Position numbers and translations under genes: made by a program | Virus record (IMG/VR): IMGVR_UViG_3300010158_000211 | Location: 1 to 32,215 of that record | From: a virus | Length of the DNA stretch: 32,215 nt | Reading direction: 5' to 3' (one strand) | The notes under the pieces: model-generated | Databases searched by the model: none | Told to the model about the DNA's origin: nothing | What the model saw: only the letters and a program-made list of their open reading frames with translations | Part shown: one piece after another, positions 2,618-27,691 of the stretch | How the letters are laid out: every line of letters starts with the position of its first letter | Position numbering within the stretch: the first letter of the stretch is position 1

Positions 2618-3397
2618 TCAGTCCCCGTTTTTCAACAGGAACTGATTGCTAATCGTTTTAAAGCTGAAGCCGGGATCTTCGTTGCACTTCCACACAAGAC
2701 CTTCGCGGATCTTGTGCGTGATGCTGGGACCTTCTGCCATAGCAAGGCCGGCCTCAACACTAGCAGGCGCAATAAAAGAGTGATGGATCACAGGAACATG
2801 CTCAAGACCACGAGTTTCGCACACATGCCGCCGCATGATAGGCGGAATGTACTCATGCTTCTTGATGTCGAACATATCAAACACGAAGAACCGGTGTTCT
2901 TTAAAGCCTTCGCGGTTGCCTTGAATACCTGGACCCATTACTTCACCTTGCACAGCAATACCGTCGGGAATTTTATCTCCAATCTTGAGAGCCATAGCAA
3001 CAAAAGTGTTGTCTTTATTCTCTTCGTTGATCTTGAGTTCAAGGTTCCGACTGCAAACACGCAGTTCGCCTTCCCAACGAAAGATTGTGCAGCTCGAACC
3101 GTCCAGCTTCATGGTGACTTCGTAGGTAGGTTCGCGGAAGTCAGCAGGCACCTCAACAGGATGCTCTTCAAGAGTTTGAGACTCTGCGTTCCATACCTTC
3201 TCGGTAGCAAACCGCTTTGACCGCTTTTGGATTTCACCAAAGCAGTTTTGAATACGCTCTTGATCAGTCTTGGGGATCAAGTCTGTGGGAAACATACCGG
3301 CAGCTTGACCTTGCAACTGTGCAGGCAGAACCGCTTCCCACTTTTGAATGCCAAGCAGTTCGGTAACGTCTAACCCGTCTTTAAGTTCGATGAGCAT
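2618..3397 (-). CDS. RNA ligase, catalytic (nucleotidyltransferase) half of a split gene
   Basis: Carries the covalent nucleotidyltransferase motifs in order: motif I K97-LDG (EVTMKLDGSS), an RVCSRN element, motif III FVFDMFD, motif IV EGLVWK (about 232) and motif V FSFKTIS (about 245). Lys97 would be adenylated by ATP. The segment LDVTELLGIQKWEA before the catalytic domain matches the linker of Deinococcus DraRnl-type RNA ligases, where an OB-fold domain precedes the catalytic domain in one chain. Here the OB domain is a separate ORF at 4315-4662, with a GIY-YIG endonuclease gene between them. This half has its own GGAG site 6 bases before the ATG. Read upstream, its frame meets a TAG at 3423-3425, so it is a separate translation unit. 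The two products may reassemble into an active ligase. Confidence 0.85.
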   Translation of the reverse strand: MLIELKDGLDVTELLGIQKWEAVLPAQLQGQAAGMFPTDLIPKTDQERIQNCFGEIQKRSKRFATEKVWNAESQTLEEHPVEVPADFREPTYEVTMKLDGSSCTIFRWEGELRVCSRNLELKINEENKDNTFVAMALKIGDKIPDGIAVQGEVMGPGIQGNREGFKEHRFFVFDMFDIKKHEYIPPIMRRHVCETRGLEHVPVIHHSFIAPASVEAGLAMAEGPSITHKIREGLVWKCNEDPGFSFKTISNQFLLKNGD

Positions 3398-4287
3398 TTG
3401 ATTCTCCAGTATTGTTCCCAGCTATCGTCAATCAACTTGTAGCATAGCTGTTGATAATTGTCAACACCAATTTCTCTAAACCATTGTCTGAGTTTGAATT
3501 CAGATATAGAAAATAGTGTGCTTATATCTTTCATTTTTATTTTATGTGTAGACAAATATTCTATTATTTGCTGTTTTTTATCAGTTGAGAATTCGATATA
3601 TCTTGGATTATTTTCAGCAGACCATTTGTTTTTACGTAACAACCGTTGACGTGCAGATTCATCCAGACCATATAATTCGTCATAAGTTTTACCTGCCCTT
3701 GCAGTAGATATTTTTGTACGAGACTCTTGTGTATGTGTTTTACCTGTAAATGTGCCAATCTGACCTTTTTTCCATTTGGTATGATCCGGTGGTGATATTC
3801 CTTTTTTCTTATTTGTATCACTAATTTTTTGTGATATGTTAATTCTATCTTCGACAGTTCTGCTAGCTTCACGTTTTATAGACGCTTCTTTTATATTTCG
3901 TTTTGCAGCATCTGTACGTTTACTACCTGTTCGTGTTAATGCTTGCTGTTTATACAACGCAGAACGATCTTCGTCGGACCAATGCTCTAATGTATGACCC
4001 CCATCTCCACCTTTAGTCATATTATAACCATGCGGTATTACAGTATTAAAATAAGTTACCCAATAAGTTTCTCGGTCATTAGCAACTTGACGAGATACAT
4101 CGCCCAATTCTTCAACAAGTATTAGTGTAAATGCATTAATGCCATGATGATTCATTGAATCATACAATCGTGTATTTTTATGGTTTAATGCACACTTTTT
4201 GTGACCTTCGAATCGTTTTATGTAATCAACTGATTTACCAATGTACGATTTACCTGTGATTGTATTTAATATTCTATATATCTGCAT
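3370..4287 (-). CDS. GIY-YIG homing endonuclease inserted in the RNA ligase gene (305 aa)
   Basis: The N-terminus (MQIYRILNTITGKSYIGKSV) is a GIY-YIG nuclease domain with the YRI...SYIG signature. Next come a conserved Arg helix, a Glu (RETYWVTYFN) and an NMTKGGDGG loop. The middle holds two NUMOD3-like DNA-binding segments (KRTDAAKRNIKEASIK; GKTHTQESRTKISTARAGKT), and the end a probable helix-turn-helix (MKDISTLFSISEFKLRQWF). This is the architecture of SegA/I-TevI-type enzymes. Its A+T content is clearly higher than the flanking ligase halves, as expected for a recently acquired element. The last 28 bases overlap the start of the catalytic half in another frame. There is no clear ribosome binding site, but a hairpin lies just before the ATG. 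Confidence 0.85.
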   Translation of the reverse strand: MQIYRILNTITGKSYIGKSVDYIKRFEGHKKCALNHKNTRLYDSMNHHGINAFTLILVEELGDVSRQVANDRETYWVTYFNTVIPHGYNMTKGGDGGHTLEHWSDEDRSALYKQQALTRTGSKRTDAAKRNIKEASIKREASRTVEDRINISQKISDTNKKKGISPPDHTKWKKGQIGTFTGKTHTQESRTKISTARAGKTYDELYGLDESARQRLLRKNKWSAENNPRYIEFSTDKKQQIIEYLSTHKIKMKDISTLFSISEFKLRQWFREIGVDNYQQLCYKLIDDSWEQYWRIKCSSNLKTG

Positions 4288-4315
4288 AATACTATCATTG
4301 TAGTCTAATAGTATT
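4288..4315 (-). promoter_or_regulatory. Hairpin upstream of the homing endonuclease start
   Basis: AATACTAT (4288-4295) and ATAGTATT (4308-4315) form an 8-bp stem with a 12-base loop, filling the gap between the OB-half stop and the endonuclease ATG. In T4, hairpins at this position limit translation of I-TevI-type genes from early messages. The minus-strand sequence ACTAAATA overlapping the stem matches 6 of 8 bases of the T4 late promoter. The role here is by analogy. Confidence 0.5.
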
Positions 4316-4662
4316 TAGTCGGGCATACTTAGATATGTAATACCGCCCACTTCAACAACTTTAAAAACATCTTCTATTTTCAAAAGTAATCCTTGAGAAG
4401 TAGTGCCACGAAGTTTGACAGTGCGAAGGCGTTCACCTTTTACATCGTTGTAGACACGAGGTTCTTGGCCTTTGCTAAGGAACGGTGCAAGTTCATGCGG
4501 TACCCAAGAATCAATCTCAAGGTACACTGCAAGACTGCCAATCTTAAACTCGTCTTTCTTAATGACTACTTTCCAGCCGTCTACAACAGCTACTTCAATT
4601 GCATCAGCACCTTCGATGGGCTGAATATCGGTAATACGCCGAACGCTTGCAAGTTTACGCAT
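4315..4662 (-). CDS. RNA ligase, N-terminal OB-fold half of a split gene (115 aa)
   Basis: The sequence MRKLASVRRITDIQPIEGAD...GWKVVIKKDEFKIGSLAVYLEIDSWVP...LRTVKLRGTTSQGLLLKI is the characteristic N-terminal OB-fold domain of DraRnl-type RNA ligases, which normally continues straight into the catalytic domain. Here the frame stops after GGITYLSMPD, and the continuation (LIELKDGLDVTELLG) is found 0.9 kb away beyond the endonuclease gene. The start is the ATG 4660-4662, with a perfect GAGGAG site 7 bases upstream; an ATG 30 bases further upstream has no such site. In the family this domain supports nick sealing and metal/substrate contacts after adenylation. It could act as a separate subunit. 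Confidence 0.8.
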   Translation of the reverse strand: MRKLASVRRITDIQPIEGADAIEVAVVDGWKVVIKKDEFKIGSLAVYLEIDSWVPHELAPFLSKGQEPRVYNDVKGERLRTVKLRGTTSQGLLLKIEDVFKVVEVGGITYLSMPD

Positions 4663-5597: not shown

Positions 5598-5625
5598 TAC
5601 ATAGCATCTAGTATGCCGTTGTCAA
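5598..5625 (-). promoter_or_regulatory. Sigma70-like promoter with repeated TATGTATAAC box
   Basis: Minus strand: TTGACA (5620-5625), 16 bases, then TATGTA (5598-5603) within GATGCTATGTATAAC. The same 15-base string occurs at 24848-24862, there also 16 bases after TTGACG. It lies just upstream of the 111-residue gene. Confidence 0.45.
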
Positions 5626-6389
5626 CCGTGCTTGGGATAAAATCTACTGTTTAGGTAAACCGCATTGGCTTCCAACTCATGTGCCATTTGAAATGCAGGC
5701 GTTAATTCCCAAAATCCCAGTTCTGCAAGGAATGTGTCAATCTCTGGCTTGAGTGCTTGCCCCTCATAGTAAGGCACAACACCAGCTTCAGTCATAATCA
5801 CACGGGTATCCACAAGACTCGCCGCTGCACCTCGTAGTACATCTAATTCTGCACCTTGCACATCCATCCATATGGCATCAATGGCAGGAATATTGTAGGC
5901 TTTACGCCAATCATCCAGCTTGTAGCCCCAGACTTTCACAGTCTTCTGTGCCCAATGTTCGTTGATAAAACTGCCTTCCAAGCCTTCAATTAACTTGTAC
6001 TTGCTGCCAACACCCATGTTGTATTTGGTTTGGCTATTGGCAAGATCCACTGCATTGAACTCCATAAGACCTGTACGGTCGTTGCCTGCCATATTCCACA
6101 GTTTGATACGATTGCGAGTTGCAGAATCTAGCCTGGATAAATTGGCATTGCAAGTGGGAATATTATCTGCGGCTGCTTCAAAGATATGAACTTGTGCAGT
6201 GGGCAGTAGTGTTGCAAATTCCATAGAATCCAGCGCATCCCAACTGCCAATCTCCATGACAGTTTTCAAACTGTCAAGGTCCACAATGTCAGCAATATAA
6301 CTCAATCGATCTTTGATCAAGCTGGCATTGCTGCCAGAAAACTCATGTGTGCCAATTGCTGCTAATGATGTGGCGTAGTGTGTGTTCAT
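5622..6389 (-). CDS. FkbM-type SAM-dependent methyltransferase (255 aa)
   Basis: SAM-binding motif I is VMEIGSWDA (44-52), the acidic end of beta-2 is HIFEAAADN, and the FkbM hallmark WMDVQGAELDVLRG lies at 174-187. The enzyme should methylate a hydroxyl, possibly of a sugar or lipid; in phages such enzymes may modify surface glycans or virion parts. The C-terminal third closely matches the second FkbM protein at 8539-9288 (VIMTEAGVxPYYxGxxLKPEIDxFL), so the two are paralogues. A GGAA site sits 7 bases before the ATG. Confidence 0.75.
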   Translation of the reverse strand: MNTHYATSLAAIGTHEFSGSNASLIKDRLSYIADIVDLDSLKTVMEIGSWDALDSMEFATLLPTAQVHIFEAAADNIPTCNANLSRLDSATRNRIKLWNMAGNDRTGLMEFNAVDLANSQTKYNMGVGSKYKLIEGLEGSFINEHWAQKTVKVWGYKLDDWRKAYNIPAIDAIWMDVQGAELDVLRGAAASLVDTRVIMTEAGVVPYYEGQALKPEIDTFLAELGFWELTPAFQMAHELEANAVYLNSRFYPKHG

Positions 6390-6402: not shown

Positions 6403-6660
6403 TTAATTACAAACTTGTTTGTTGTCAGCGTCCATGCGAGGTGTGATACCGCCACGTTGCGTGGCAAGATACTGGCAACCTGTGAGCGCATCAGTCAACA
6501 CAGACATGTTGCTGCGACCGCCAGGGGGATCACTGTTGTCGCGCGGCGGTTGATGCTGCGCCAAACCTGCCACTATTACTATAGAAACCAAAACTGCTGC
6601 CGTGGTGATGAACCCGCTGAAACCTCCGCCAATTACTATTGGTTCTGGTTCTTTGGCCAT
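6403..6660 (-). CDS. Small membrane-anchored protein (85 aa)
   Basis: A hydrophobic stretch ([20 protein letters not shown], about 14-33) follows a short N-terminus. A Gly/Pro/Asp-rich linker follows, then [20 protein letters not shown]. That last element resembles a small motif (xYLxxxxGGxTPRxDxxG) that I have seen in short phage and bacterial proteins of unknown role. The C-terminal part is probably periplasmic. An AGGAAAG site precedes the ATG. Confidence 0.55.
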
Positions 6661-6728
6661 TACTTTTTCTTTCCTAAATCTGCGATATCGATAATACTAC
6701 ACAACCATAATGTAATATGCAAGAGAAA

Positions 6729-6736
6729 CATAAATA
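6729..6736 (+). promoter_or_regulatory. T4-late-like promoter element upstream of the plus-strand endonuclease
   Basis: CATAAATA matches 7 of 8 bases of the T4 late consensus TATAAATA and lies 60 bases before the endonuclease start. Similar xATAAATA or TAAATA elements precede the other plus-strand genes. Confidence 0.35.
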
Positions 6737-6795
6737 ATATTGTAGTTCGCGAGATTGGCGTCTCCAACTACTCTATTGTTATGAGGAACAACAGC

Positions 6796-7422
6796 ATGAA
6801 TACTTATCGGCAATATCCAGTGGGATATTATGTATATGCATACATACGGCAATCAGACAATACACCATATTATATTGGAAAAGGCAAGGGCAATCGTGCT
6901 TGGCAATCACATGGTAGAGTAACTGTACCAAACGATAGCAGCAAGATTGTTATAATTGCAGATGATTTGAATGAATTATGGGCGTTTGCATTAGAACGAC
7001 GACTTATCAGATGGTATGGTAGAAAAGATTGTCTTTATGAAAATGGACAAGCAGGTATACTTCTCAATCAAACAGACGGCGGCGAAGGACACAGTGGGTA
7101 CATACAGTCTTCTTCTACTAAACTTAAACGTTTAGTCACTATAAAAGAAAAGTACAATACTACTCATTTCAATACACCAGAGTCTCGTGCAAAATCTTGG
7201 GAAACTAGACGAACCAATGGTACTGAATCTAGCAAATCATCTAAACCGCGGAAAATACGAGCAGTAGAATCTAAAGAAAGAGATCCTGCTAGATATGCAT
7301 TAATGTGGGAAACACGACGTAATACTTGTCAAGTAGAATGCCCTCATTGTAAAAAAACTGGAATGCGTCATATGATGCATCGATGGCATTTTGCTAAATG
7401 TAAGTTATTTCTTATTACCTAA
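6796..7422 (+). CDS. GIY-YIG homing endonuclease with C-terminal zinc finger (208 aa)
   Basis: The GIY-YIG signature is [26 protein letters not shown] near the N-terminus. The nuclease Arg and Glu helices follow ([24 protein letters not shown]). The C-terminus carries a zinc-finger-like [22 protein letters not shown], common at the end of phage HNH and GIY-YIG enzymes. I chose the ATG at 6796 because GAGG lies 8 bases upstream; the open frame continues back to 6415, but that part is only antisense to the membrane-protein gene. It is one of the few plus-strand genes and its last 18 bases overlap the convergent neighbour, as expected of an inserted freestanding element. A+T-rich relative to neighbours. 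Confidence 0.85.
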
Positions 7423-8538: not shown

Positions 8539-9288
8539 TCATTGTGTTTGTTTAAATTTAGTATTGACGTAGATGGCATTGACTTCGTATTCATGTGCCT
8601 GCTCTCTGGCAGATTCCAATTCTACAAAGCCTTGTTGTAACAAAAATGCATCAATTTCAGGTTTCAGTGTATGACCGTGGTAGTAGGGTTTGACACCCGC
8701 TTCTGTCATGATCACCTGCATATTTGACAATGTATTCACTGCGCCTCGTAGTACTGTGAGTTCTGCACCCTGCACATCCATCCAGATGGCATCCACTCGT
8801 TCGACCTTGGATTCTACACACCAGTGGTCCATGGTATAACCCTGCACAGAGATTTCGCGTTGTGCATTGTGTTCCCAGGGCCACATGTCAGGGTTTTCAA
8901 GTTTTAATACACTGCCCATACCTGTATTAACTTTGCCTTTGGCTGCCATGGCTTTTTCTTCGTCAACTTCATAGAACATTATAGGTCCTGTGGTATCTGT
9001 CAGGGCAATTTGGCTCAGTGCAATACGACTGCGAATATGATAGGGCTGTGTCATATAGGTTTTGACACAGCGTTCACAATTTTGTTTGCTGGGTTCAAAT
9101 GCATGTACTCTAGCATCTGCGAATACGCGAGCAAGATTGACACCTTCCCACCCATCCATTGCACCAACATCTAGTATGGTTTGCCAACTGTTGAGATCTA
9201 CAACACCCGTCAAATGTTGTAGGCGTTCAGCCAACACAGACATGTTATAGCCAATGGGATTACGTATCAGTGCGTCGTTGATAGTCAT
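8539..9288 (-). CDS. FkbM-type SAM-dependent methyltransferase, second copy (249 aa)
   Basis: Motif I is ILDVGAMDGWEG, the acidic beta-2 end HAFEPSKQN, and the FkbM hallmark WMDVQGAELTVLRGA. The enzyme should O-methylate an unknown, probably sugar-containing, substrate. It shares with the copy at 5622-6389 the order motif I, QGAEL motif, VIMTEAGVxPYY, LKPEIDxFL and an AxExExNAxYxN end. The start is the ATG 9286-9288, overlapping the upstream stop as TAATG with AAGGAAA upstream; an upstream in-frame ATG would lie inside the neighbouring gene. Confidence 0.75.
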   Translation of the reverse strand: MTINDALIRNPIGYNMSVLAERLQHLTGVVDLNSWQTILDVGAMDGWEGVNLARVFADARVHAFEPSKQNCERCVKTYMTQPYHIRSRIALSQIALTDTTGPIMFYEVDEEKAMAAKGKVNTGMGSVLKLENPDMWPWEHNAQREISVQGYTMDHWCVESKVERVDAIWMDVQGAELTVLRGAVNTLSNMQVIMTEAGVKPYYHGHTLKPEIDAFLLQQGFVELESAREQAHEYEVNAIYVNTKFKQTQ

Positions 9289-9950
9289 TAAATTTTCCTT
9301 ATAAAAGCGGCAATGCCATAATCTGTATCTTCTGTACAATATCTGGCTTTATCATACATTGTATTGTCTACTGCATCAAACAGTGCAGCACACCCTGGGT
9401 GACTGTTACTATCATGTAGTAACACTATACCACCCGGACGTAGTAGATCTGCATAACGCCAATCGTTTACACAGGTGTTGACACTGTGCCACCCATCTAT
9501 AAACAACAGATCCAAATGTGTTATGCCCTTGCTGGCTATGAATTCACGTATCGCAGTTTGATTGTGACTATTAGATTGCAGTGTACATGTATTGGCGTCT
9601 GCATTGTCAAGATAACTTTTGTCGTCAAGATCTACGCCCAAGTAAAATGATCCAGCAGGCCTGCCTTCCATAATAATCTTGCTCATACTGCGTTCGCTCA
9701 TACTGGCTTTATTGCTGCGATCTACGCCAATTTCCATTGCTGCTGTCAATGATGTGCCAAGATGTTCAACTGCTTGACGAACAATTGCTCTATTACCGTC
9801 TGATATTTCCTGCAACCCAGTCCAGCCAAATGGAGGCGCATCTTGATCATTATCGACTTGTGGTTCAAGATCAGGAAAATACCTCAAGCCCTGTATTGTA
9901 GTAGGGCGAGGTTTAATCAATTCTATTATTCTATTATATGCGGTAGTCAC
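9288..9950 (-). CDS. Class I SAM methyltransferase, Methyltransf_24 type (220 aa)
   Basis: Motif I region is AMEIGVDRS (71-79), followed by YLGVDLDD, then DLLFIDGWHS (147-156) and LLRPGGIVLLHDSN (169-182). The FIDGxHS...PGGxxxxHD pattern is typical of Methyltransf_24 enzymes, which in bacteria are often tied to surface-polysaccharide synthesis. The start is GTG at 9948-9950, with AAAGG upstream. It overlaps the FkbM gene by one base, so the two are surely co-translated and may act on the same glycan. Confidence 0.7.
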   Translation of the reverse strand: MTTAYNRIIELIKPRPTTIQGLRYFPDLEPQVDNDQDAPPFGWTGLQEISDGNRAIVRQAVEHLGTSLTAAMEIGVDRSNKASMSERSMSKIIMEGRPAGSFYLGVDLDDKSYLDNADANTCTLQSNSHNQTAIREFIASKGITHLDLLFIDGWHSVNTCVNDWRYADLLRPGGIVLLHDSNSHPGCAALFDAVDNTMYDKARYCTEDTDYGIAAFIRKI

Positions 9951-15272: not shown

Positions 15273-15731
15273 TTACACAATGATGATACGGTCGAAGCCT
15301 TCGTCCGCAGTGGGCATTTCCAACTGCGATACCATGCCCATGACAATGTTGGCAGGAATGGTTTTTCCAGGACGATTGGCCAGTCGTCGCTGCAATTCTG
15401 CTTCAGGCGGAGTATTAAAGTACACAGCAATTTTTTCGTAATGCGCAGGCACACGATTCAATTTCTTGCCACGAGTCTTGGCAGTTACATTGGTCTGATC
15501 CCAGATTACATCGTGTCCTGCTGCAAACGCAGCCACAGCATCTGCATGCATTTGCCGTTCAGCTTCACCAATCACAGACTTGAACATGTCATTGTAGGTT
15601 TTGCCTGCGGCTTCCGCAGCAGCTTCGATTTTGTCATCTGTGCTGAGAATAACCGCATCGATGCCGCAATTTTTGATCCACGTGCTTTTACCAGAACCGG
15701 GTACGCCAATCAAGATGTAAAGTTTTTGCAT
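15273..15731 (-). CDS. P-loop kinase, polynucleotide-kinase-like (152 aa)
   Basis: Walker A is GVPGSGKST (9-17), and ILSTDDKIE (about 29-36) matches the DD region that binds the 5'-hydroxyl in T4 Pnk. VIWDQTNVTAKTRGK (75-89) fits the motif after the beta-3 strand, and LQRRLANRPGK the lid arginines. This corresponds to the 5'-kinase domain of T4 polynucleotide kinase, without its phosphatase domain. With two RNA ligases in the window, a role in healing cut tRNA is plausible; a zeta-toxin-like or nucleotide kinase is the alternative. AAGGAG precedes the ATG. Confidence 0.75.
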   Translation of the reverse strand: MQKLYILIGVPGSGKSTWIKNCGIDAVILSTDDKIEAAAEAAGKTYNDMFKSVIGEAERQMHADAVAAFAAGHDVIWDQTNVTAKTRGKKLNRVPAHYEKIAVYFNTPPEAELQRRLANRPGKTIPANIVMGMVSQLEMPTADEGFDRIIIV

Positions 15732-19040: not shown

Positions 19041-19649
19041 ATGCGCATCAATGAACTCACTGGTTACCGTTCCCATCCTGCTTATAAACAAGCAAGATCC
19101 ACGTTTGACGATACCACAGACAAATGGGCCATGCAGACTCGTCGCAAAGACAAACTGGAACAGTTTAGAACGTTTCTAGAAAAAAATGGCTTCAAGTTTA
19201 TAGACAAGGGATCGTTTGGCGCAGTATTTGAACGTCCTGGATATCCATGGGTATTTAAAATATTCAACAGGGATCCTGCATACTTACACTTCGTAAAGTA
19301 TGCCATGGCACATCAGGATAATCCACACTTGCCACGGATCAAAGGCATCATAAAAATCAACGACGATACCTATGCAGTGCGTATGGAACGCTTGAGTCCA
19401 ATACCGCTTGGCACAGAGCCTGCAATGTCACTGATACGTAAAATAGTCGGCATTGACAGCTATGGCGATCTCAGCGATGCAGATGTGGCATGGATAGACA
19501 AAAAGTTTCCAGGCATTTCTGCGTTTTTCAAAAGCTTTCCGTTGGGTGAGTTTGAATACGATCTACACTTACAAAACTTCATGCAGCGTGGCAAGACCAT
19601 GGTTATAGTAGACCCCATATATGATTATAGAGAAATGCAGGGCAACTGA
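19041..19649 (+). CDS. Protein-kinase-like protein 1 of 3 (202 aa)
   Basis: A compact kinase fold: glycine loop G57-SFG (IDKGSFGAVFE), Lys73 in WVFKIF, hinge TYAVRMERL, catalytic D174-LHLQN179 and metal Asp191 in VIVDP. DxHxxN plus a DP in place of DFG recalls aminoglycoside-kinase and small phage kinases. At 202 residues it lacks a large C-lobe. The N-terminus MRINELTGYRSHPAYKQARS is shared in style with the next two genes. No strong ribosome binding site is seen; a GCTAAATA element 6-13 bases before the ATG suggests a very short leader. The target could be a host protein or small molecule. Confidence 0.7.
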   Translation: MRINELTGYRSHPAYKQARSTFDDTTDKWAMQTRRKDKLEQFRTFLEKNGFKFIDKGSFGAVFERPGYPWVFKIFNRDPAYLHFVKYAMAHQDNPHLPRIKGIIKINDDTYAVRMERLSPIPLGTEPAMSLIRKIVGIDSYGDLSDADVAWIDKKFPGISAFFKSFPLGEFEYDLHLQNFMQRGKTMVIVDPIYDYREMQGN

Positions 19650-20251
19650 TGCAGCTACGTGATTTATTCGAACGTCACTATAAAAGCTTGCCAGCGTATC
19701 AGCAGGCTCACAGTGATTTCTCTGACACCAGTACGCATGGTGCAGCCATGCACGGCATGCTGAAATTTGATAAATTCATGCGTGAAAATGGATTTGAACT
19801 GCTGGGATCGGGCGGATTTGCCAACGTTTATGAACGACCAGGATATCCTTGGGTATTCAAAATCTTCACTGGTGATACAGCATACCTGTCATGGTTGGAA
19901 TATGTCACTGCCAATCAAGGCAACGAACATGTGCCTAAACTACGAGGTAAACCATTTAAAATCAACAACGGTACCTATGCCATACGCATGGAAAAATTAA
20001 CACCATTGCCCGGCAATTTCACGGATGATCCATTGCTTGATGCTGTTATGTATGGCGGGCTTCCACTTACACGCAAGTCTGAAAGCACTATTACAGATCT
20101 AGGGCATCCGGATTTATTGGCTGTTTTAAAAGCAATAATGAAAATTGCATATTCTAATAAAAATTACAACACAGATTTACATAGATATAATCTAATGATG
20201 CGCGGTAACACACCTGTTATAACAGACCCGCTTGCAGATTCCAGGGTATAA
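19649..20251 (+). CDS. Protein-kinase-like protein 2 of 3 (200 aa)
   Basis: Paralogue of both neighbours: SGGFANVYERPGYPWVFKIF holds the glycine loop and Lys71, NGTYAIRMEKLTPL the hinge, NTDLHRYNLMMRGNTPVITD the catalytic loop and metal Asp. The loop SGGFANV keeps two of the three usual glycines. It starts at the ATG overlapping the previous stop (TGATG), so expression is coupled. The N-terminus MQLRDLFERHYKSLPAYQQA matches that of protein 3. All key kinase residues are kept, so it is probably active. Confidence 0.7.
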   Translation: MQLRDLFERHYKSLPAYQQAHSDFSDTSTHGAAMHGMLKFDKFMRENGFELLGSGGFANVYERPGYPWVFKIFTGDTAYLSWLEYVTANQGNEHVPKLRGKPFKINNGTYAIRMEKLTPLPGNFTDDPLLDAVMYGGLPLTRKSESTITDLGHPDLLAVLKAIMKIAYSNKNYNTDLHRYNLMMRGNTPVITDPLADSRV

Positions 20252-20254
20252 AAC

Positions 20255-20974
20255 ATGCGCTTACAACAACTATTCCTCAACGAAAACACAGTGCTTGATG
20301 AACTCACACACTACAAAAACTTGCCTGCGTACAAAACTGCGCAAGATACATTTGCAGGTGTTGGACGTGGTGGTCATTACAGTGCCATGAAAAAGTTCAA
20401 CGAGTTCATGAATGAACACGGCTTTAGGAAAATGGGCGAAGGTGCATTTGGTGCAGTGTATGAAAAGGAAGGATATCCATGGGTATTCAAAGTATTTCAT
20501 GGAGATCCTGCATACTTGGATTTCTTACGCTATGCCATTGCACATCAAAATAACCCACATGTGCCAAAGTTCAAAGGCAAACCCTTCAAAATAGATGATA
20601 AAACCTATGCCATACGCATGGAAAAACTATATGAATGGACCAGTTACTTTGATCTTATGGGACATACCAAATCATTGATGTATGCTGTATCTTCGTGGAG
20701 ACCGCCTGTGTCACCAGACCAAGAAGCAGTGTTTAAGTCACGCGGTGCCGCAGGATTAATACCAGTACTCAACAATCTTGCTCAATTGTGTGGTAGTAAA
20801 AATTACAGACTAGACCTACACCATGGTAATATTATGAGACGTGGCAATACCATAGTAATAGTAGATCCTCTGGTAGACGATGCGAGTTTGCAAAGAAGTG
20901 AACCAAATATGGCGCCGCCTGATGAATCGCAACAGTCCACTCAACCGGGCAGATTTGAACCCAGTTCAAAGTGA
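20255..20974 (+). CDS. Protein-kinase-like protein 3 of 3 (239 aa)
   Basis: The most complete copy: GEGAFGAVYEKEGYPWVFKV with a canonical GxGxFGxV loop and Lys79, KTYAIRMEKL hinge, RLDLHHGNIMRRGNTIVIVD catalytic loop and metal Asp. It has a 10-residue longer N-terminus (MRLQQLFLNENTVLDELTHY) and a Ser/Pro-rich tail of about 25 residues after the kinase fold. The last 34 bases overlap the convergent gene at 20941. Tandem triplication with retained catalytic residues argues for selection for several related substrates. Confidence 0.7.
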   Translation: MRLQQLFLNENTVLDELTHYKNLPAYKTAQDTFAGVGRGGHYSAMKKFNEFMNEHGFRKMGEGAFGAVYEKEGYPWVFKVFHGDPAYLDFLRYAIAHQNNPHVPKFKGKPFKIDDKTYAIRMEKLYEWTSYFDLMGHTKSLMYAVSSWRPPVSPDQEAVFKSRGAAGLIPVLNNLAQLCGSKNYRLDLHHGNIMRRGNTIVIVDPLVDDASLQRSEPNMAPPDESQQSTQPGRFEPSSK

Positions 20975-21386: not shown

Positions 21387-21613
21387 GGTTTCAATCCATA
21401 TTTTCTGCACAGTGCAGCATGACCTGCCACTGCTTCATCCAGTGTTTGATAGCGATCAACGACTTCACTGCCGTTTTCTGAGAACAAGCAAGACTCATAC
21501 TTGTAACCAAAATCCATGCCCGGTATAGTGGGCATTTCCACAGTGCTCAAGCGGATTGTTTCAAGACTAAACAATCCGCCATCGCTTGATACCTTTTGCC
21601 AACGCGGCGCCAT
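21383..21613 (-). CDS. Small conserved-looking phage protein (76 aa)
   Basis: The pattern SSDGGLFSLETI...YESCLFSENGSEVVDRYQT...LDEAVAGHAALCRKYGL is familiar from small proteins of T4-like phages, function unknown. Its ATG overlaps the RNA ligase 1 stop (TGATG), so it is the second gene of that unit. Confidence 0.65.
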   Translation of the reverse strand: MAPRWQKVSSDGGLFSLETIRLSTVEMPTIPGMDFGYKYESCLFSENGSEVVDRYQTLDEAVAGHAALCRKYGLKP

Positions 21614-22812
21614 CAGTTGTCTCCATCAAAGTGATAAGTCCATTTGATATCCTTCCACAGATGCCGCACGGAATCAATGGTAGTCTGAGTGCCAGTGTGC
21701 TTGCGGATATGCGCAACCAGCATTGCACGAGTATCTTTGCCGTCAAATTTGCCAAACACAATCATGGGAGCCACAGGGTCGTTCTTCTTGATAGTGGGCA
21801 TCCACTCAGTGGCATAACGCTTGCGGTCCAAGCCAGATGCCACCACACCGTTGTAATAACGGTCGTAGCTGTCAACACTTGCAGCAATGCCTTCCCAAAA
21901 GTCATTTTCAAACTGGTCAACTCGATGACGGTCATCATCCAACATAAACGCTTTGCTGTCATCCAGCTTGTCCGTGACAATCAACTTGATCAAGTTCTTT
22001 TCCAAGTTCAAGTTGTCTTTGGTCTTATGGATACGACAGTACCACTCGCCTTTGATTTTGTGCATTTCGCCATCGTCAAAACGAATGATCCAACCTTCCA
22101 TGCCTTCAACATCATGGGTCTCAGACAACAGTCGTTCCATGTTGGCAGCAGTGCCGTCGTAAGCACGAACAACATCAATATTGTAAGAACCTCCCCATTC
22201 TAGCAAGTCGGCATAGCCGACATATTCACCAGAGACATTGTGACGAATAGCCAGCAATACCAAACGGTCCTCTGGATAGTCAATGACAATGCGTTGCTTA
22301 CGGCTGCACCATTCAAAGATGGGAGTCATACCGCGAGTGATGCATTCGCGTGCCATAGATTCATAACCATGAGTACCAAGAGTAGCAATGAACAGTTCTG
22401 CACCCATGCCAACATCAGTGATACCCATCTTGGTACCCCAACGGATACCCGCATCAGTGATCACAGGCGTAATCATAGAACCATCCAGCTTTTCCAAGAT
22501 CACATGCGGACGATTCAAATCAATGCAGTGCATTTGAGTTTCGTCACGTTCGTTGACGTTGAAGAACTTGTGCAAACGGCGTGCCATGATTTTACCGTCG
22601 TTATGGAAAAGTATACCACGGCATTCTCGACGAATGGCAGCATGCAGATCGTATTCATTGTTCAACATCACAGGAGGGAACGTATCAATCATGTTGACCA
22701 TGTAGTTGACAACGTAGCCCCAATCGCGTTCAACAATTTTAAATTCATCGCGACCTGCAATGGCAGCACGAACATCGTCGATATGATTGATGTTAGGAAA
22801 TTGGTAGCCCAT
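21613..22812 (-). CDS. rnlA: RNA ligase 1, T4 Rnl1 type (399 aa)
   Basis: Follows T4 Rnl1 along its whole length: ECRGILFHNDGKIMARRLHK, FFNVNE, adenylation Lys108 in EKLDGS, FEWCSRKQRIVIDYPEDRLV, EGWIIRF (motif IV) and MHKIKGEWYC (motif V), with an all-helical C-terminal domain of about 130 residues. It seals 5'-phosphate and 3'-hydroxyl RNA ends using ATP, classically repairing tRNA cut by host anticodon nucleases. The ATG at 22810-22812 has AGGG 9 bases upstream; an ATG 48 bases further upstream lacks a site. With the P-loop kinase at 15273 it could form a heal-and-seal pair. Confidence 0.9.
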   Translation of the reverse strand: MGYQFPNINHIDDVRAAIAGRDEFKIVERDWGYVVNYMVNMIDTFPPVMLNNEYDLHAAIRRECRGILFHNDGKIMARRLHKFFNVNERDETQMHCIDLNRPHVILEKLDGSMITPVITDAGIRWGTKMGITDVGMGAELFIATLGTHGYESMARECITRGMTPIFEWCSRKQRIVIDYPEDRLVLLAIRHNVSGEYVGYADLLEWGGSYNIDVVRAYDGTAANMERLLSETHDVEGMEGWIIRFDDGEMHKIKGEWYCRIHKTKDNLNLEKNLIKLIVTDKLDDSKAFMLDDDRHRVDQFENDFWEGIAASVDSYDRYYNGVVASGLDRKRYATEWMPTIKKNDPVAPMIVFGKFDGKDTRAMLVAHIRKHTGTQTTIDSVRHLWKDIKWTYHFDGDN

Positions 22813-22840
22813 GTCGTTCAACCCTGTATGAATAACTGTG

Positions 22841-22881
22841 TATGGTTGACAATAACACATAGCAAATTACTGTCAACCATA
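22841..22881. repeat. Perfect 11-bp inverted repeat between lysis gene and RNA ligase 1
   Basis: TATGGTTGACA (22841-22851) and TGTCAACCATA (22871-22881), 19 bases apart, each containing TTGACA facing inward to the other. Neither has a good -10 at 17 bases. It may be a hairpin ending the lysis transcript or an operator pair. Confidence 0.5.
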
Positions 22882-26344: not shown

Positions 26345-27691
26345 TTAAACTCCTGTAACTTTGTCATTACGAAACCCCATGAACACAGGGAACCTCACAC
26401 TCCAAACGTCATCGCTGTCTTGATTCTTTGTTAGTACATCTCCTTTGATTTCAACTGTGCGACCAATTACAGTATCGCGGCTTACCCAAATCTCATCACG
26501 TAGTTCTTCTGTATAGCCGCCGCCAACTGTGACTTCAATCAGCTTGCCTTGATCAACACCGCGACATACCAATCCACCCATGGTGTTTTTGAATTTGCTG
26601 TCAGCTTTACCAGGTTCAACGTCAACAACTTCCAAGTCCACAGTGATAAAGGGTTTGATCTTCATCCATGCATCGGTACGCTTGCAACGATAGCTGGCAC
26701 CGGGATCTTTTACCATAATGCCTTCATAGCCAGCAGCCACAGTTTCGTTGTTGAACTGTTTGAATTCTTCCTGTCCTTCTGCTGTATCAAGATCGACAGC
26801 CTTCTTGGGAATCACATACACACTTTCGCCGCAGGTGTCTTGCAACATGGGTATAAATCCAACTAGCACATCCTGTCGTTCTGTCTGTTTCACAGCATAT
26901 TCACCTGCACGGAATTCGTCAAGCGGAATGATATCAAACAGTGCCAGTTTGGCATCGCTGGTATCCACATCACTTTTGCGATTCAACTGCTTCATCAGTT
27001 CTTGGAAGCTGCGGCTAACCATTTCGCCATCCAGCACAATGCTCTGTTTCAACTTGGGCAGCATTGCAGACATTTTGTCAGTGATGGCATCAAACCTATC
27101 GTTTTGCCGTCCGTCTCGGCTGTATTGTGTAACAGTCTGTGCGTCGATATCCAAGATAGTGAGAATGCGCACACCATCCAGTTTGGGATCCAGCAGCTTC
27201 CAACCCTTCATCTTCTTGGGATGGTCATCTGCGTTTTTTGCAAGCTGGCAGCTAAACACAGGGATAGTATATTGCAGTGCATCACCGCCAATGGCTTCCA
27301 GCACTTTGTTGATAGTGCTTTCAGTTACACCGCACTTGAGATCTTTAAGCAGCAGTCTACGGTACCAACCGTTCCAATCTGCGGTGCTTGATACATCTGC
27401 TGCTGCAAGCAGTGCATCACGTGCAGCATTGCCAGTTAGTTGGCGTTTGCGCAGTCGTTCTAGCAGTGTGTTGAATTTGATCCAGTCCATGCTGGGTACA
27501 AAGCCCGGCATATCACCATCTTCAATAATGGGTGCTTTTTTGACACCAAATGTAACAAGTGCATCATATGCAAGCTTGGCACCTTGGAAGAATTCAACAC
27601 AGCCTTGATCCCATGCGCGGCGCACGATGGCTTCTTTATCTAGTCTACCCGGTGTAGCTTCAAGCTGCGCAATGACGTCTGACGGTTTCAT
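26345..27691 (-). CDS. ATP-dependent DNA ligase, T4 gp30-like (448 aa)
   Basis: Domain order as in T4 ligase: an N-terminal helical DNA-binding domain (with WNGWYRRLLLKDLKCGVTES, TINKVL), the catalytic Lys170 in LLDPKLDGVR, YSRDGR, VLDGEM (motif III), GYEGIMVKDP (motif IV), DAWMKIKP (motif V), then an OB domain (EVVDVEPGK...GGLVCRG...VEIKGD). It seals nicks in duplex DNA during replication and repair. At 448 residues it is a little shorter than T4 gp30. It is first in a run with the 107- and 112-residue genes. Confidence 0.9.
   Translation of the reverse strand: MKPSDVIAQLEATPGRLDKEAIVRRAWDQGCVEFFQGAKLAYDALVTFGVKKAPIIEDGDMPGFVPSMDWIKFNTLLERLRKRQLTGNAARDALLAAADVSSTADWNGWYRRLLLKDLKCGVTESTINKVLEAIGGDALQYTIPVFSCQLAKNADDHPKKMKGWKLLDPKLDGVRILTILDIDAQTVTQYSRDGRQNDRFDAITDKMSAMLPKLKQSIVLDGEMVSRSFQELMKQLNRKSDVDTSDAKLALFDIIPLDEFRAGEYAVKQTERQDVLVGFIPMLQDTCGESVYVIPKKAVDLDTAEGQEEFKQFNNETVAAGYEGIMVKDPGASYRCKRTDAWMKIKPFITVDLEVVDVEPGKADSKFKNTMGGLVCRGVDQGKLIEVTVGGGYTEELRDEIWVSRDTVIGRTVEIKGDVLTKNQDSDDVWSVRFPVFMGFRNDKVTGV

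Follow-up and report, generated by a model that had tools for sequence, protein, structure and literature searches.

The virus sequence studied here encodes its Rnl5 (DraRnl/NgrRnl-type) RNA ligase as two open reading frames (ORFs), an OB-fold half and a nucleotidyltransferase half, with a GIY-YIG homing endonuclease gene (HEG) between them and all three on the minus strand. The window, i.e., the whole 32,215-nucleotide stretch that was analysed, is a viral fragment of 32 kb from IMG/VR, and its split ligase is one of 14 distinct cases, each having an HEG of the same clade in the same linker. The explanation favored here, and held with good confidence as a whole, is that a free-standing GIY-YIG HEG, from a clade specialised on the phage Rnl5-type ligase gene, converted the ligase gene of this phage; the ligase would now consist of two proteins, each translated from a ribosome binding site of its own, and most likely associating without covalent joining into a working enzyme, as in Aeh1 NrdA.

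The two halves of the ligase and the gene between them

As for the N-terminal half, it spans positions 4315-4662 (minus strand; ATG at 4662, TAA at 4315) and encodes 115 amino acids, the last of which form the tail KIEDVFKVVEVGGITYLSMPD just before the TAA; it matched the Pfam OB-fold family PF21189 (1.9e-29), and it aligned with the PDB entry of NgrRnl over residues 4-100 at about 1e-20. The C-terminal, catalytic half lies at 2618-3397 (minus strand; ATG at 3397, stop at 2618; 259 amino acids) and has the motifs KLDG, EGLVWK, and FSFK; it matched PF09414 (RNA_ligase, 6.9e-26) in Pfam and NgrRnl at 2.1e-39. On the 341 positions of the NCBIfam model TIGR02306 (RNA_lig_DRB0094, the DraRnl model), the OB half covered 2-103 and the catalytic half 107-341, so that the two together span one profile end to end. 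The pair has the N-terminal OB module and the nucleotidyltransferase domain with KxDG that define Rnl5, in the same order as in the Naegleria gruberi ligase and DraRnl (Rnl5 clade), but the single-polypeptide trait of these ligases is absent: the window has two ORFs with a separate stop and start. The initial annotation had reported a ligase split in this way by a GIY-YIG gene, and both its coordinates and the two collinear pieces seen with Pfam and TIGR02306 bear it out. Its further claim, that each half has a ribosome binding site of its own, agrees with the Shine-Dalgarno (SD) sequences seen by eye, AGGAG-ACTAAC-ATG for the OB half and GGAG-AATCAA-ATG for the catalytic one. Three IMG/VR contigs from other metagenomes (L002, L003, and L030, the last ending inside the HEG) carry the identical split with 100% identity in the matched segments; the split is therefore not an assembly slip.

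The HEG occupies positions 3370-4287 (minus strand) and encodes 305 amino acids. It matched PF01541 at 1.6e-5 and TIGR01453, a model of group I intron endonucleases, with 64.2 bits against a cut-off of 56.05; the residues Y4, Y15, G17, R25, E73, and N89 were invariant in seven relatives, in agreement with a GIY-YIG enzyme. The HEG of the window is itself without a clear SD. A second likely GIY-YIG-type ORF occurs at 6757-7422 (plus strand) within the ORF 6415-7422; its neighbours are on the other strand, and it had no Pfam match at 0.001.

Regarding the rest of the window, it encodes a T4 Rnl1-like RNA ligase (phrog_562; 21613-22860, minus strand) and an ATP-dependent DNA ligase (phrog_114; 26345-27691, minus strand), making a total of three ligases in 32 kb, together with a small kinase-like protein (phrog_505, a weaker match; 15273-15731, minus strand). 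Three tandem similar ORFs of 200-239 amino acids at 19041-20974 (plus strand) resemble kinase-fold paralogues by eye, and two similar ORFs at 5622-6389 and 8539-9339 (both on the minus strand) are methyltransferase-like by eye, the first matching PF05050 (FkbM).

Recurrence of the split and movement of the endonuclease gene

Comparison with about 180 intact relatives (66 distinct ones in a first set and 116 in a second, the two sets partly overlapping) showed that both halves align as one protein, and that the break of the split forms coincides with the hypervariable interdomain linker of the intact ones; in the latter, the segment from SQGLLL to DVTELLGIQKWE varies strongly in length and sequence. 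One intact relative was similar to NgrRnl along its whole length (E 1e-65). The initial annotation had read the two halves as one uninterrupted ligase, which stands for the domains, as they are collinear, and not for the linker ends, which are not strictly alignable; given the hypervariability of the linker, the junction "...SMPD + LIEL..." is not the literal linker of any intact ligase found.

Besides the window, the split was found in L019, L006, L040, L107, L098, L099, L104, L100, L106, L110, and L109, and, among contigs of bacterial genomes, in L352 and L354 (L353 is the same as L109). Hence a two-piece ligase, which had been called unusual, is recurrent. Without exception, the strongest relatives of the HEG sit between the two halves of a ligase, in viral as well as bacterial-genome contigs, and for 68 weaker matches there is no ligase nearby. 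Splits that had lost the HEG were not found among the 66 and 116 intact loci of the two partly overlapping sets; in cultured phages, which were searched with the HEG rather than record by record through their 317 ligases, no match covered at least 80% of the query. As every split found still has its HEG, and as close relatives have intact alleles, the initial statement that the phage had fixed the break was too strong, and the two-piece state as such may not be under selection.

In a tree of the catalytic half, built on the main dataset of 12 split and 66 intact rows, the split rows were scattered among the intact ones, with at least seven changes forced by well supported branches; this number is not a count of insertions, because the changes may include losses. 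The HEG of the window clustered with those of L098, L099, and L104, and its catalytic half with those of L006 and L019. Each data set rejected the grouping of the other (p-AU of 1.4e-50 and 5e-70, for groups picked after the identities were seen), meaning that the HEG and the catalytic half have different histories; the strong conflict between the HEG and ligase trees indicates transfer of the HEG from one ligase allele to another. One such site can be seen in a near-isogenic pair: the filled L040 and the empty L079/L083 are about 95% alike on both sides, their similarity ends at the KLRG codons and returns at the LGIQKWE codons, and the segment between is replaced. Together, the tree conflict and the filled/empty pair point to mobility of the HEG into HEG-less alleles, on comparative grounds and not from a cross.

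In the window, the conserved TVKLRG codons lie at approximately 4413-4430 (minus strand); they are the point where homology breaks off on the 5' side in L040/L079, are mimicked in the HEG leaders, and represent a candidate target site. Most likely, the HEG would cut close to these RTVKLRG codons, where the OB-fold ends, and repair from an HEG-bearing allele would then swap the hypervariable linker for a cassette that brings a new C-terminal end and a stop codon to the OB half, followed by a structured leader, the HEG, and the signals (SD and start codon) from which the catalytic half is translated.

Anatomy of the inserted cassette

The inserted element seems to be complete in itself, bringing the stop of the OB half, the leader, and, in five lineages, the restart of the catalytic half. 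At the downstream side, the last 28 nt of the HEG are also the first of the catalytic half. The restart signal, at approximately 3395-3410 (minus strand), is TGGAGAATCAAATGC, an SD (GGAG) and an ATG in a different frame, contained within the HEG codons for Trp-Arg-Ile-Lys-Cys. The same device, with the TGGAGA of the terminal Trp-Arg codons of the HEG providing the GGAG SD that precedes the out-of-frame ATG, occurs in the window, L019, L006, L040, and L107, so that in five lineages the SD and the start of the second half are placed inside the last codons of the HEG; with the restart codon in this position, imprecise loss of the HEG would be costly. Two loci have an extra ORF between the HEG and the catalytic half (4861-5148 in L098, 2264-2521 in L099); these ORFs differ but end almost alike (in FGVDK), and the overall gap is the same in both loci.

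At the upstream side, the leader of the HEG (4288-4315, minus strand) contains a hairpin, AATACTAT..ATAGTATT, directly 5' of the HEG ATG, with a folding energy of -8.5 kcal/mol and a z of -3.42 (-2.82 on 50 nt); hairpins close to the HEG ATG had z values from -2.8 to -3.8 in the window, L006, L107, and L100. Several leaders also carry a mimic of the RTVKLRG codons of the ligase, which was first spotted by eye and then found to be significant at the peptide level: in 7 of 13 leaders, the translated 7-mer had its best match in the whole ligase at the RTVKLRGQ site, and in a narrower peptide test four leaders scored 23-28, compared to 12 or less in 36 control leaders of HEGs unlinked to ligases. 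At the DNA level, local alignments of the leader with the ligase codons were mostly not significant against shuffles. The window holds a degenerate form of the mimic (ACTATTAGACTAC, TIRL).

Another element, TATAAATA, was present in 4 of 12 leaders (L006, L040, L107, and L104), and the corresponding ACTAAATA of the window leader matches it at just 6 of 8 positions. Among three related phages that were sampled in part, it preceded 3 of 38 ORFs by 22-28 nt in the gp23-bearing one; as it was not enriched in the window (3 occurrences against 1.4 expected) or overall in the sampled parts of the three, the idea of a T4 late promoter is kept only as a lead.

By analogy, these elements recall the upstream region of I-TevI, the GIY-YIG enzyme of the T4 td intron, which has an operator resembling its homing site, a late promoter, and a hairpin at the ribosome binding site (PMC2988022). 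Apparent counterparts of the operator, promoter, and hairpin exist in part of the split-ligase HEG clade; differently from I-TevI, there is no intron here, and in the window both the promoter match (6/8) and the operator match are degenerate. The regulatory parallel is suggestive, and the mimic might act as an operator. The strongest competing explanation sees the RTVKLRG-like leader as the scar of an ancestral insertion at those codons, with no operator function; it is a tentative but serious possibility, favored by the mimic having the reading frame of the ligase in L006, L019, and L040 and by its degeneration in the window. Such a relic fits less well with the persistence of the mimic, at the same place before the ATG, across HEG lineages just about 35-55% identical, with its position beside or over the TATAAATA motif in some leaders, and with the I-TevI precedent.

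Extending the operator reading, the whole insert could be a mobile gene-splitting cassette, by which this GIY-YIG clade repeatedly turns Rnl5 into a two-subunit enzyme, with a stop, a decoy or operator copy of the target, and a restart in the tail of the HEG, leaving host and parasite translationally locked; the chances of this broader proposal are judged to be evenly balanced.

Probable joint function of the halves and parallels in other phages

Purifying selection acts on both halves: in the pair L098/L099, which shares the split, the OB half had a dN/dS of 0.09, the catalytic half one of 0.19, and the HEG one of 0.21; more distant pairs also gave values well below 1, with dS saturated in several of them. 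According to work of Shuman's group on DraRnl, both ligase adenylylation and nick sealing at the 5'-phosphate reportedly depend on the N-terminal module; if this module is required here as well, both products would have to act together to seal RNA.

Alternatively, the HEG may have broken the enzyme, leaving the split ligase inactive or half-active, with the catalytic half alone, or nothing, of use. A weakened Rnl5 might be tolerated, because the phage of the window also has the T4 Rnl1-like ligase and the DNA ligase; moreover, all splits are HEG-linked, and in L006 (1844-2225) the OB half is frameshifted, by sequencing error or decay. This is nonetheless unlikely in view of the low dN/dS of both halves in the pair sharing the split, the good SDs kept for both in the window, the recurrence of the allele in four metagenomes, and the conserved residues retained in all split N- and C-halves compared; in particular, the catalytic residues K97, G100, E152, E232, and K247 (numbering of the window C-half) are invariant across 11 split forms.

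Joining of the halves after transcription was weighed as well. The insert could be a group I intron that harbors the HEG and whose splicing restores one ligase: the HEG matches the TIGR01453 model, endonucleases of this kind often sit in introns, and the AGACTA of the leader resembles by eye part of a group I core. This is very improbable, and was rejected on negative Rfam searches and lack of room: Rfam gave no intron match in the window insert, L098, or L006, whether the gathering score was applied or E values up to 10 were admitted, and none at the gathering score in six further loci; outside the HEG ORF, just about 30 nt are left in the window, and in L098/L104 about 75 nt precede the HEG; in addition, L098 and L099 have different ORFs between the HEG and the C-half, and the C-half of the window has its own SD and ATG. 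Protein trans-splicing by a split intein of a fractured gene, a phage layout with an HEG between the intein halves that was reportedly described by Dassa in 2009 (a reference listed in PMC10448857), can be practically dismissed, as the extra tail of about 21 and head of about 8 amino acids do not exceed the linkers of intact relatives in length, which leaves no room for it, and neither half matched an intein family in Pfam.

The two-protein ligase proposed above has parallels among the phage enzymes split by HEGs, namely nrdA with mobE, the T4 topoisomerase gene 60/39 with mobA, and gene 43 with seg43(25) (PMC2988022). The first of these is known from Aeh1, where mobE interrupts nrdA (Friedrich et al. 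2007; review in PMC2988022): there and in the window, an HEG lies between separately translated halves of an enzyme that is intact in relatives, and an RNA hairpin would control the HEG. The two differ in the endonuclease, GIY-YIG here and HNH there, and in the enzyme, an RNA ligase instead of a ribonucleotide reductase; further, the function of the NrdA halves was demonstrated, whereas that of the ligase halves is inferred. Gene 43/seg43(25) of Aeromonas phage 25 and gene 60/39/mobA of T4 similarly involve a phage enzyme that is broken up at the position of an HEG (PMC2988022), although the enzymes are other ones and, for gene 43, the HEG as the cause of the break is uncertain. A literature search turned up no publication describing an RNA ligase in two pieces, and none of the few HEG-split phage enzymes in the literature surveyed is an RNA ligase. 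Compared to these systems, the novelty of the present one lies in its target, an RNA ligase, in its unusual recurrence, and in the built-in restart codon.

With 14 distinct cases and intact near-isogenic relatives at hand, the passage of a single gene into a two-subunit enzyme can be traced and tested step by step. Since the break parts the OB module from the catalytic domain, the pair may also serve as a natural tool to study the role of the OB module in trans.
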